Shown: in pieces, positions 6,346 through 59,306 of the stretch
How the letters are laid out: each line of letters starts with the position of its first letter
How positions within the stretch are numbered: the stretch's first letter is position 1
Assembly (NCBI RefSeq): GCF_014861365.1
Contig: NZ_RRYW01000003.1
Location: forward strand, 1 to 64,000
Length of the DNA stretch: 64,000 nucleotides
Direction of reading: 5' to 3'
Source of the DNA: Psychrobacter sp. FME6
GTDB taxonomy: Bacteria > Pseudomonadota > Gammaproteobacteria > Pseudomonadales > Moraxellaceae
Made by a program: the position numbers and the translations under genes
Notes under the pieces: generated by a model
What the model was told of the DNA's origin: nothing
The model's input: the letters and a program-made list of their open reading frames with translations, nothing else
Database searches by the model: none

Positions 6346-6376
6346 AAGCCCCAATCAAATTGATCGGGGCTTTTCT
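6346..6376 (+). terminator. Rho-independent terminator after trhO
   Basis: Stem AAGCCCC (6346-6352) and GGGGCTT (6366-6372), followed by TTTTC. Confidence 0.85.
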
Positions 6377-6415
6377 TATTTTTACTTTCTTCTAAAACGT
6401 GTACTTAATAAAACT

Positions 6416-6520
6416 TATACCATTCACAAAAATTAGAGTGGCAAGAAAAACGCGTGTAAGTACTACCTCTTGTAGACTAAACAAGTTTGACACAGCCAAT
6501 CTTACCTTTTGGGTTTGGTA
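6416..6520 (+). repeat. TATACCA-ended element (family M), copy 1
   Basis: Starts TATACCATTCACAAAAATTA and ends TTTTGGGTTTGGTA, so its termini form an imperfect inverted repeat. Copies at 28801-28920 and 35467-35572 share the order TAGAGTGGCAAG, TAGACTAAACAAGTTTGACA, CCAATCTTA and GGGTTTGGTA. The right end touches the TAA stop codon of the minus-strand gene at 6521. Confidence 0.75.
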
Positions 6521-6949
6521 TTAGCTACCACGGTAAGTGCTGTAGCCGTATGCTGACAAGGTAATTGGCACATGATAATGCTTGTCGCCTTCGATATTAA
6601 AATTCACTTCAACATAAGGGTAAAAAGACTCTAAGCTTTGATTACGAAAATAAGGTGTCGTCTCAAATATTAACTTATACGTACCATCGTGATCGACATT
6701 GCCACTATTTGGTAAAAAGTTATTAATACGGCCATTGTCGTCGGTCGTTTTAGTACTAAGTAATTTCCAGGCGCCATCATCTTGCATCATAAGTTTTACA
6801 TCGACATTTGGTGCAGGCTTGCCTGTACTAATATCTAGGATATGACTCGATAACTGATATTTATCTTGGTCACCAGCCGCAAAACTTGCTGTCGCACTCA
6901 TAGCCAGCACGCCACCTAATGCAGCAGCTTTTATCATCGTTGTTTTCAT
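6521..6949 (-). CDS. uraH: Exported 5-hydroxyisourate hydrolase (transthyretin-related)
   Basis: The enzyme hydrolyses 5-hydroxyisourate, the uricase product, to OHCU in urate breakdown. Hallmarks of the active family are all present: SSHILD near the mature N-terminus (His), NGRINNF (Arg), HYHVPITLS (His) and the diagnostic C-terminal YRGS. From the ATG at 6949 (AAGGG five bases upstream) the protein is 142 residues and begins with a signal peptide ending ASFA at about residue 24, so it is periplasmic. The frame extends to 6973, where there is no Shine-Dalgarno. No other purine gene is nearby. A repeat element abuts its stop codon. Confidence 0.92.
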   Translation of the reverse strand: MKTTMIKAAALGGVLAMSATASFAAGDQDKYQLSSHILDISTGKPAPNVDVKLMMQDDGAWKLLSTKTTDDNGRINNFLPNSGNVDHDGTYKLIFETTPYFRNQSLESFYPYVEVNFNIEGDKHYHVPITLSAYGYSTYRGS

Positions 6950-10498: not shown

Positions 10499-10660
10499 AT
10501 ATAGTTGATTCACTTTAGAACCGATACAAGTGCTACTGGAGTAAATTTTTCGCAGCCTCTGTCACGCTTGCGAACAGCAAGCAAGAAAAATTTATAACAG
10601 TAGCACGTGGCTACCTGTGTATCGATCAGTGTATCGATTTTATATGGAACTGCCTATACT
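10499..10660 (+). repeat. R1 palindromic repeat, copy 3
   Basis: Begins ATAGTTGATTCACTTTAGAA, has a central arm pair GTGCTACTGG and AACAGTAGCAC around GCAGCCTCTGTCACGCTTGC, and ends GTATCGATTTTATATGGAAC. It is closely matched by the copy at 27049-27197. It starts about eight bases after the preceding stop codon. Confidence 0.75.
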
Positions 10661-21660: not shown

Positions 21661-21771
21661 CGATATAGTCGTTTCAAGGTAAATTGGACAAAAAAAGGCT
21701 ACTGGAAGTACTACAAATAATAGACTGAGTAAGCCTGACACCGTAGCCATTTTATATAGGATTGGCTATAG
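21661..21771 (+). repeat. R2 dispersed repeat, copy 1
   Basis: Contains AAGTACTACAAATAATAGAC and TGAGTAAGCCTGAC. Its reverse complement aligns over its full length with 59191-59306. It ends 20 bases before the aldo-keto reductase start, in what should be the promoter or leader. Confidence 0.7.
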
Positions 21772-27048: not shown

Positions 27049-27197
27049 CTATAGCTGATTCACTTTAAAACTGATACGAGTGCTACTGGAGTAAATTTTT
27101 CGCCGCCTCTGTCACGCCTGCGAACAGCAAGCAAGAAAAATTAGCACCAGTAGCACGGGATTATTGACGTGTCGATTTTATTTAGAACTGACTATAA
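27049..27197 (+). repeat. R1 palindromic repeat, copy 4
   Basis: Begins ACTATAGCTGATTCACTTTA, has a core TCGCCGCCTCTGTCACGCCT and CGAACAGCAAGCAAGAAAAA, and ends GTCGATTTTATTTAGAACTG. It is nearly identical to 10499-10660 in the core. Confidence 0.75.
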
Positions 27198-28703: not shown

Positions 28704-28736
28704 AAAAAGCCCGCTAATGATTAGCGGGCTTTTTAT
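28704..28736. terminator. Bidirectional terminator after the transglycosylase gene
   Basis: Stem AAAAAGCCCGCTAA (28704-28717) and TTAGCGGGCTTTTT (28721-28734), loop TGA. It can also terminate tsf from the other side. Confidence 0.9.
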
Positions 28737-28800
28737 ATTTAAAAGATAAGCGATTAGCGCTATATCAAACAATCGACGTAGCACTCACTCTTTTAACATC

Positions 28801-28920
28801 TATACCATTCACAAGAATTAGAGTGGCAAGAAAAACGAGTTCAAGTACTATACCTTCAAGTACTATGTCTTATAGACTAAACAAGTTTGACACGGCCAAT
28901 CTTAATTTTTGGGTTTGGTA
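28801..28920 (+). repeat. TATACCA-ended element (family M), copy 2
   Basis: Begins TATACCATTCACAAGAATTA and ends TTTTTGGGTTTGGTA. It is about 13 bases longer than the others because TTCAAGTACTAT is duplicated inside. The right end touches the tsf stop codon (28921-28923), exactly as copy 1 touches the uraH stop. Confidence 0.75.
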
Positions 28921-29802
28921 TTATTTGTTTGCCGCTTGGGTAGCAGCAACTTCAGCAGCAAAGTCTTCTTGCTTCTTCTCGATGCCTTCACCAACTTCTA
29001 GACGTTTGAAACCAAGTACTTTTACGCCTTCAGCTTTTAATACGTCACCAACTTTTTTATCGTTGTCCATCACGTATGGCTGACGTAGTAAAGTGACTTC
29101 GTCTAGGTATTTACGTAGGCCACCTTCGATCATTTTTTCAACGATATTGTCAGGCTTGCCAGACTCTTTTGCTTTGGCTTCGATGATGTCTTTTTCGCGT
29201 GCTAGTACGTCAGCAGCAACGTCTTCGTCATCGACAGCAACTGGGTTAAATGCAGCGATATGCATGGCAAGATTTTTGCCAGTTTCTGCATTACCGCCTT
29301 CAAAAGATACCACTACACCGATACGTAGGCCGTGACGGTATGAGGCAATATTAGCGCCCTCTAGCGTTTCAACACGGCGAACTTGGATGTTTTCACCGAT
29401 TTTCTGTACCAATGATACGCGTGCTTCTTCAACCGTTTGACCATCGCCATACGGTAGCTCAGAGATAGCAGCGACATCAGTGACGTTGTTTTCTAGGGCA
29501 AGGTTAGCCACTTTTTCTGCAAATGCAGTGAAGCTGTCATCTTTTGCGACGAAGTCAGTTTGGCAGTTAACTTCTAACAAGAATGCTTTATTTTCGCCTT
29601 GAGCGATGATGATTGCGCCGTCAGCTGCGATGTTACCAGCTTTTTTAGCCGCTTTCGCTTGACCAGATTTACGTAGGTTATCAATGGCAGTTTCGACATC
29701 GCCGTTTGATTCTTCTAACGCTTTTTTACATTCCATCATGCCAAGACCAGTACGGTCACGCAATTCTTTTACCATTTTGGCAGATACTTTTACTTCTGAC
29801 AT
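28921..29802 (-). CDS. tsf: Elongation factor Ts
   Basis: EF-Ts exchanges GDP for GTP on EF-Tu. The 293-residue product has the N-terminal UBA-like module with [18 protein letters not shown], the core segment [14 protein letters not shown], and the HIAAFNP region. It follows rpsB by 235 bp on the same strand (the conserved rpsB-tsf operon); the spacer contains a strong hairpin. AAGGTAA precedes the ATG. The stop codon is directly joined to a family-M repeat. Confidence 0.98.
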
Positions 29803-31179: not shown

Positions 31180-31303
31180 GGTAGATTCAAAATAGCGTTC
31201 TACTGGTATAAATTTTTCTGGCGTGCTGTGCCTGCGCAGACAGAGGCTGCAAAAAATTCATACCAGTCCCGCTGTATCGATTTTATACTGAACTCACTAT
31301 ATC
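31180..31303 (+). repeat. R1 palindromic repeat, copy 5 (inverted core)
   Basis: TACTGGTATAAATTTTTC and GAAAAATTC-like arms flank a core GCGTGCTGTGCCTGCGCAGA reading opposite to the copies at 10499 and 27049. The end GTATCGATTTTATACTGAAC matches the other copies. Confidence 0.7.
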
Positions 31304-34936: not shown

Positions 34937-35466
34937 AATTAACTTCCTTGTTTAAATAGTGCATAAAATGAGATTAAAAATCTGAATGATTGATCGCTTT
35001 AATGTAGCCAAACATTTATGACATCTCTAAGCCTTAGTGTTATACAAGGCAACTGGCCATATAACCATTCAATCATCTATCCTTGAAGATTAGAGTAGGT
35101 CTAGGGCGTGTCCTACGTTTTTAGTGAAGAATTACTTTTAGCTTAAGCGTGTTTTATTAAAACCCATACCCTATCAATATCTTTTCCATAGGCACAGATA
35201 TGTATTCACATAGAGGATATGTTGAAATTTCCAGATAAGTTTAGATAAGATTTTTATAAAACGTTGAATAAAAACAATCTTAGACAATATGATTTAGAAG
35301 AAATATTTTTTTATGAATGGTTGCTTAATTACAATTAAGTAAGGTTTTACACAGGTATATTGCTTTTTATTACACAAAATTACATTTTTAATCATACTAA
35401 AATGAACTTGCGAATGCAACAATTTTATTTGACTTTTGTTATGGGTTAATTCTTATACTTCTTATA

Positions 35467-35572
35467 ATACCATTTACAAAAATTAGAGTAGCAAGGAAAA
35501 CGAGTGCAAGTGCTACGCACTGTAGACTAAACGAGTTTGACAGGGCTAATCGTACTTTTTGGGTTTGGTATA
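35467..35572 (+). repeat. TATACCA-ended element (family M), copy 3
   Basis: Begins AATACCATTTACAAAAATTA, ends TTTTTGGGTTTGGTATA. Internal blocks TAGAGTAGCAAGG and GTAGACTAAACGAGTTTGAC match the other two copies. This copy is not at a stop codon but sits just beyond a terminator hairpin. Confidence 0.75.
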
Positions 35573-35577
35573 AACAT

Positions 35578-35621
35578 AAAAAAAGCATTTAGACGTATAA
35601 TACGTGCTAAATGCTTTTTCG
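35578..35621. terminator. Terminator after the MFS gene
   Basis: Stem AAAAAGCATTTA (35580-35591) and TAAATGCTTTTT (35608-35619), with inner ACGTAT/ATACGT pairing. Bidirectional. Confidence 0.87.
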
Positions 35622-55086: not shown

Positions 55087-55122
55087 TGCGACGAGTAATA
55101 AGGCCTGCCCGAATGCTTAAAA

Positions 55123-55250
55123 TATCGTCAGTTCGATGTAAAAAAGATACCGTGCGACTGGTATTAATTTTTTGCAGCCTCTGTCAGCGTAGACACCGCA
55201 AGCAAGAAAAATTAATACCCGTCACGCGTCAAAGAAAATGTATCTTAATT
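55123..55250 (+). repeat. R1 palindromic repeat, copy 6
   Basis: Begins AATATCGTCAGTTCGATGTA, has arms GACTGGTATTAATTTTTT and AAAAATTAATACCCGT around GCAGCCTCTGTCAGCG, and is cut on its right by a solo IS end at 55251. Confidence 0.7.
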
Positions 55251-59190: not shown

Positions 59191-59306
59191 AATATCGTCA
59201 ATTCCATATAAAATCGAATACGGCGTCAGGCTCACTCAGTCTACTATTTGTAGTGCTTGCACTCGCCTTCTTTGTATCCAAATTACTTTAAACAGACTAT
59301 AGTCGT
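59191..59306 (-). repeat. R2 dispersed repeat, copy 2
   Basis: Reverse complement of 21661-21771, with AGTCTACTATTTGTAGTGCT in the centre. It sits between the DUF4845 gene and rnc, so it will be part of the polycistronic transcript if there is one. Confidence 0.7.

Follow-up and report, generated by a model that had tools for sequence, protein, structure and literature searches.

The IS1031 group of the IS5 family and the PIF/Harbinger elements duplicate 3 bp of the form TNA/TWA, and ERIC sequences are about 127 bp long with TA as their target. RUP of Streptococcus pneumoniae is a 107-bp intergenic repeat, present in 108 copies, with ends that match the IS630-family element IS630-Spn1, and ERIC sequences are intergenic hairpins whose influence on mRNA stability downstream of a gene depends on their orientation (both from the part of PMC2229807 available to us). 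Studied IS630/Tc1/mariner elements duplicate the dinucleotide TA, as did ISY100 in 34 of 39 sequenced products (PMC2170065, in its available part). MITEAba12 is a 113-bp MITE with 16-bp ends and 9-bp duplications, for which ISAba12 was proposed as the parent (PMC6382973, also available in part). Here we describe family M of Psychrobacter sp. FME6. We consider it highly probable that family M is a MITE with a TNA duplication that restores stop codons, most likely moved by an IS630-family transposase with near-identical ends. No description of family M was found in the available portions of the literature on Psychrobacter MITEs, IS630 at stop codons, IS630 TNA targets, or MITEs downstream of stop codons, and the accessible part of a review of prokaryotic MITEs (PMC10969869) contains no mention of stop codons, orientation, Psychrobacter or IS630.

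The window, which is the whole stretch of 64,000 nucleotides that was analyzed (contig NZ_RRYW01000003.1), contains three copies of family M, all on the plus strand. Copy 1 (103 bp, 6418 to 6520) is flanked by the target duplication TTA at 6415 to 6417 and at 6521 to 6523; the right one is, on the minus strand, the TAA stop codon of uraH (hydroxyisourate hydrolase, TIGR02962/PF00576, 6521 to 6973, minus strand), which the right end of the element adjoins. Copy 2 (118 bp with a 15-bp internal duplication, 28803 to 28920) likewise has its right end at TTA (28921 to 28923), the minus-strand TAA stop codon of tsf (elongation factor Ts, TIGR00116, 28921 to 29802, minus strand). Its left flank, CTA at 28800 to 28802, is one base off the right flank, and the tsf copy therefore has no perfect target duplication. 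Copy 3 (103 bp, 35468 to 35570) lies off stop codons between two TAA duplications (35465 to 35467 and 35571 to 35573). The initial annotation had placed the ends of copies 1 and 2 at the stop junctions of uraH and tsf, and the last base of the element is indeed followed directly by TTA, the complement of the stop. It had also placed copy 3 past a terminator, in agreement with a hairpin at about 35579 to 35620, read by eye, beyond which copy 3 is situated, 102 nt downstream of the stop of a minus-strand gene. Its copies are real, but its start coordinates were 1 to 2 nt too early because part of the target duplication had been counted in.

Some further features of the window and its genes were observed. 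The 15-bp direct duplication TTCAAGTACTATACC inside the tsf copy was absent from the 39 other aligned FME6 copies. The best named relatives of tsf were from Psychrobacter (95-97% identity). The N terminus of the uraH protein resembles a signal peptide, and a second, more distant uraH-like match is present in the FME6 genome on contig C157. A repeat family of about 127 nt, by eye unrelated to family M and with inverted arms of the GTGCTACTG...CAGTAGCAC type, occurs in the window at 10500-10626, 27050-27176, about 31196-31302 and 55122-55229.

Family M is a 103-bp imperfect palindrome of the form TACCATTC...GGGTTTGGTA, and is also read as TACCATTCACAAAAATTAGAG...AATCGTACTTTTTGGGTTTGGTA. As expected of a MITE, it is short and non-coding, has the terminal inverted repeats TACCA/TGGTA and occurs in many dispersed copies. 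One DNA query recovered 40 near-full copies in the FME6 genome, and a covariance model built from these 40 gave 82 hits at E<=0.001, some of which belong to other families. Eighty of the 82 hits were read and two were left out. Recognisable ends were found in 61 of the 80, which puts the family at about 60 copies in FME6; the second 40 hits comprised 21 such copies of M and 19 that were of another family (B), core-only or fragments. These 19 were excluded ahead of the 118-copy counts described below, and among them the right end lay within 30 nt of a converging stop in five (L113, L120, L123, L124 and L131) and the left end in one (L136). For the 20 copies from other species, three orthologous duplicates were removed, including the left-end case L264, and L257 and L268, probably orthologous too but neither near a stop, were both retained. 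The G022 copies L193, L198, L202 and L208 entered only the replichore count, and L042-L060 and most of L187-L212 were fetched but stand outside all counts.

At least one match to the 103-bp query was found in 39 of 60 sampled genomes of the genus, FME6 among the 60, and a separate expansion in the genome G022 gave 52 model matches, some of them possibly other families. Orthologous insertions common to different species show some copies to be old; such shared insertions were seen at L268 (G043), L269 (G053) and L257 (G017). The G032 copy at L052 was absent from its neighbour G013.

We then analyzed the target site. The 3-bp flanks were identical in 32 of the 40 FME6 copies, against 16.3 expected from re-paired flanks, with 16 TTA/TTA and 14 TAA/TAA matches called by script and 2 more after end correction. 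At other lengths, the flanks of the FME6 copies were identical in 2 of 40 (k=2) and in 0 of 40 (k=4 to 10). Identical TNA flanks were found in 33 of 40 copies in G022 and in 13 of 20 copies in other species. A filled and an empty site could be paired: G032 has M between two TGA where G013 has a single TGA. In this pair, the sole exact one aligned, the flank alignments overlap by exactly 3 bp around the 103-bp insertion, giving a net insertion of 106 bp at the L052/L423 site. The target duplication is TNA, nearly always TAA/TTA, and a duplication of TA was ruled out by the empty site and the agreement of two W bases. Both a target-site duplication and an empty site, as expected of a MITE, were thus found for family M, and judged from its sequence family M is a non-autonomous mobile element.

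A scan of the fetched loci for M ends at a wider spacing revealed a 1084-bp (1.08-kb) IS with M-like ends in G022 (L247:405-1488). The ends were TACCAAACCC...GGGTTTGGTA or a close variant in the seven copies read. Of the two overlapping frames of the IS, the first contains HTH domains and the second a DDE_3 domain; NF033545 matches both frames and PF13358 the second, which identifies an IS630-family transposase. The second frame had no match among solved structures. Full-length copies were listed at 10 places, in G022, G045 and G002, while some match to the IS, from full length down to 30 bases, was present in 13 of the 60 sampled genomes; the FME6 genome had none at E<=0.001. The copy at L247 and six further full copies carry M ends, that is, family M has the ends of an autonomous element, as a MITE would. 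Judging solely by this identity of ends, we infer that M is most likely mobilised in trans by the IS630-family transposase. In 7 of the 7 IS copies read, the transposase frames are split at a conserved A6-A7 run, which suggests that programmed frameshifting may occur there.

All seven IS copies read had identical TAA or TTA on both sides. Neither these copies nor M show the 2-bp TA duplication of IS630/Tc1/mariner elements; both have 3-bp TNA. Since known IS630 elements duplicate TA and M duplicates TNA, we do not class M among the ordinary IS630-type MITEs. The 3-bp TNA duplication agrees with IS5/IS1031 or PIF/Harbinger elements, but the transposase type does not, being IS630. An IS5-type parent was rejected: the FME6 genome has six PF01609 hits, none enclosed by M-like ends, and one PF13359 hit, co-located with one of the PF01609 hits and also not enclosed by M ends. 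If an IS630-family transposase makes TNA rather than TA duplications, the range of behaviour presumed for the superfamily would become wider.

It was initially proposed that the element chooses sites at TA in stop codons, on the basis of two of three copies located at stops. To compare the positions of M with chance, we used sampled intergenic TWA sites as a background, with a home-made gene caller applied to sampled stretches. The first background included M bases; the second was M-masked and drawn from different, larger stretches, 41 of FME6 and 20 of G022, a few of the FME6 ones overlapping. Stop codons made up 3.2% of the intergenic TWA sites in the first background and 2.9% in the second, and 13-14% and 13.2-13.6% of the sites, respectively, lay within 30 nt after a stop. 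In FME6, 5 of the 40 near-full copies were located exactly on a stop codon, so that two in three is not typical. Over several genomes, however, 14 of 118 copies were exactly on a stop, which is above chance (p=2.7e-5 against 3.2%, p=1.0e-5 against 2.9%), and other copies did not show the lack of stop preference that would have refuted the initial proposal. A larger excess was found for copies within 30 nt after a stop (47 of 118 against 13-14%, p about 1e-12 with both backgrounds). Within this near-stop zone, the exact share of 14/47 did not differ from that of the TWA sites there (112/460, p=0.40) or in the second background (380/1714, p=0.22). The excess at stop codons is part of a broader excess in the first 30 nt downstream of stops and is not due to stop recognition. 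What stands of the proposed site choice is that the duplicated target is TNA, which a TAA stop fits and by which it is restored; the singling out of stops from nearby sites does not stand.

Loss of harmful insertions explains some of the near-stop excess. On the other hand, M may have no preference at all, inserting at random TWA sites with harmless intergenic copies surviving, so that the matches to stops would be due to chance. Such a reading agrees with the symmetric target consensus (about AACTWAGTT), which TAA stops fit, and with exact stops not being enriched inside the near-stop zone. We consider it quite unlikely, since survival accounts for the excess but not for which end of the element faces the gene.

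Near stops, the right end (GGGTTTGGTA) faced the gene 42 times and the left end 7 times (p=3.6e-7, with two copies counted on both sides). By set, the ratio was 18:0 for the most uniform FME6 copies, 9:2 for the more diverged FME6 copies, 10:2 for G022 and 5:3 for the others. At exact stops, the right end faced the gene 13 times and the left end once. When four later G022 copies were added, the near-stop counts became 44 right and 8 left and the exact counts 14 right and 2 left, and over nine gene-caller/distance settings the polarity ranged from 31:3 to 40:12. The target flanks looked symmetric by eye in the 71 copies located more than 30 nt from a stop; therefore, sequence preference is not an obvious cause of the polarity, and an asymmetric target was rejected as the cause. 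The most uniform cohort, which is presumably the youngest, has the strongest polarity (18:0), and our best guess is therefore that the polarity arises during or shortly after insertion, through polar insertion or through fast loss of copies with the other strand transcribed. We take the first 40 FME6 copies to be the youngest on account of their mutual similarity.

Recurrent occupation of one stop was found at argG. M lies at the argG stop in FME6, G032 and G051, in the same orientation, that is, in 3 of 30 species read; it was absent at the 27 other loci read, and G013, the neighbour of G032, is without it. A tree of one gene places the three species apart from one another, and the nearest copies to each argG M differ, those of G051 lying outside the compared set. 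The simplest reading of these sequences is that the argG insertions may well be independent, and one old insertion followed by many losses and gene conversion is conceivable. The 3/30 occupancy, scattered on the gene tree, also argues against insertion without any preference. At a glycosylase-like gene (L035), M lies at the stop in FME6 and a decayed M-like element lies at the same stop in 9 of 29 other loci, several of those nine being close relatives of one another. No comparable recurrence was found at tsf (0/18) or uraH (0/3). What is novel in this analysis, and unexpected to a specialist, is the end polarity together with the recurrence at argG, and these separate polar insertion from selection on the transcribed strand.

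Another possibility is that replication orients M, for example through contact of the transposase with the sliding clamp, and that the gene polarity is a by-product of gene co-orientation. In many IS families, the transposase binds the sliding clamp (PMC4549789, in its available part), which would fit. We examined this in the complete chromosome of G022, in which the contig starts at dnaA and the GC skew changes direction near 1.7 Mb (20 sampled stretches, one of which, at 1.02 Mb, runs opposite). Of the 52 model matches in G022, 44 copies were read, and 35 of these pointed against the fork (p=1e-4); away from gene ends, 24 of 30 did so. By replichore on G022:C1, 16 of 17 copies were on the minus strand before 1.7 Mb and 19 of 27 on the plus strand after it (L213-L252, L193, L198, L202 and L208). 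However, this bias was not reproduced in FME6 (30/52, p=0.33; 21/39 in the first FME6 set), where local GC skew served as the fork proxy, fourfold-site skew being a noisier fork marker than raw skew. Furthermore, only about two thirds of the genes in the G022 stretches were co-oriented, too small a share to produce 42:7. Since the G022 bias was not seen in FME6, we do not offer replication as a general cause, and we regard this possibility as doubtful.

The polarity could also have its origin in the transcript. M may be a functional RNA hairpin with a core under selection, retained in positions downstream of a gene in which its right strand is transcribed, for instance to insulate translation termination. 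In 31 diverse sequences, the core stems were paired in 93.3% of cells against 85.9% when shuffled, and 41 core cells were doubly changed against 13.1 shuffled, a count reached in 0 of 500 shuffles, while slid structures reached at most 11. Two of the five measures were weak: 24 of 500 shuffles had at least as many core pairs with double changes (8 of 15), and 209 of 500 had at least as many further pair types in the core (19). The remaining measures are inflated by relatedness, and the structure used for the test came from M itself. The same core hairpin occurs in elements with other transposon ends, namely, family B (ATAGTC...GACTAT) and the elements L120 and L124, which differ again. In addition, work on a synthetic E. 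coli operon shows that mRNA structures immediately after stop codons influence re-initiation (PMC7518266, in its available part). Against such a function, no Rfam family matched in the window, and one M copy gave two chance-level Rfam matches far below the gathering scores. The wobble pairs favoured no strand clearly (12 versus 7 in FME6, 45 versus 36 in G022), and a strand-specific RNA structure was rejected on this ground. Moreover, the older sets show no stronger polarity, and the palindrome may also be kept for transposition. We consider a functional RNA hairpin unlikely as the explanation of the whole pattern; for the core itself, a role as a mobile functional RNA and a role in transposition are equally possible.

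Family B, a second palindromic family that has other ends than M but the same core, was seen in the window at 21666-21768 and 59197-59297 and also at L113, L122, L125, L126, L128, L129 and L132-L136. Among the core-sharing copies (including L120 and L124), 7 of 13 have their right end toward a gene, 18-45 nt ahead of its start codon. M and B might belong to a set of mobile structured-RNA cassettes with a covarying core and at least two, probably more, end types, each with a fixed mRNA polarity, M behind stops and B upstream of starts, although we hold this to be rather improbable. If true, stop-restoring 3-bp transposition would be a means of adding a regulatory hairpin to genes without damage.

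It was also suggested that the element provides the mRNA 3' end of the adjoining gene. If M supplied a terminator or mRNA 3' end and were kept for that reason, its location directly behind stops, its hairpin on both strands and its A-run/T-run arms would be explained. However, terminator-like hairpins, read by eye, lie beyond M at both genes, at 6346 to 6373 between uraH and the converging gene past copy 1 and at 28705 to 28735 past copy 2. In 18 relatives, tsf is without M and has its TAA stop at the equivalent position to within about a residue, and the same C-terminal residues are present in the 3 nearest uraH relatives, two of which have a TGA stop; neither gene was found to run past this point when the element is absent. 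Likewise, argG stops at the equivalent position in 27 relatives that are without M, two of them with TAG. A hairpin, mostly of similar sequence, follows tsf in 16 of the 18 relatives, and one of other sequence lies at a similar place in all 3 closest uraH relatives (both by eye, in the 180 nt shown). Because the genes end alike without M and the hairpins persist beyond it, the element is not required for forming the mRNA 3' end, and at tsf and uraH it was inserted between the stop and the terminator. A simple scan for a GC-rich stem directly followed by a T run was negative for copies 1 and 2, although this is weak evidence, as the same scan missed the native hairpins outside M. A strict hairpin finder, which found a left-side hairpin within 100 nt in 11 of 42 near-stop copies, was not used since it too missed the tsf and uraH hairpins. 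The strand transcribed behind stops folds less stably than the other (mean -18.9 versus -23.2 kcal/mol, 40 copies), and a simple promoter scan around copies 1 and 2 found nothing. Retention of M as a terminator is very unlikely, and the suggested provision of the 3' end was not supported.

On insertion, M duplicates a TNA triplet, mostly TAA/TTA and thus TAA on one strand. Because the TNA triplet is duplicated, a TAA stop is a natural and restored target: with the stop as the target, a copy of it is kept on each side and the protein is unchanged. Such insertions would presumably persist, as nothing breaks, and would contribute part of the excess within 30 nt behind stops. A 3-bp TAA duplication is a simple, cost-free entry into the end of an essential gene such as tsf, and it makes safe-site insertion measurable.

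Compared with known systems, M is like RUP in being a short repeat with the ends of an IS630-family element (PMC2229807, in part), but the target of RUP is TA, whereas M duplicates TNA. The IS that carries the ends of M has an IS630-family transposase, as have ISY100 and the other IS630/Tc1/mariner elements, and is unlike them in its TAA or TTA flanks in 7 of 7 copies. MITEAba12 and M are both MITEs of Moraxellaceae and differ in the length of the duplication, being set apart here by the available part of the published description. ERIC and M, compared by description and in part, are both intergenic hairpins of different length and target. Finally, M shares the TNA/TWA duplication with the IS1031 group and PIF/Harbinger elements, but the transposase found with the ends of M belongs to IS630, not to IS5 or Harbinger.
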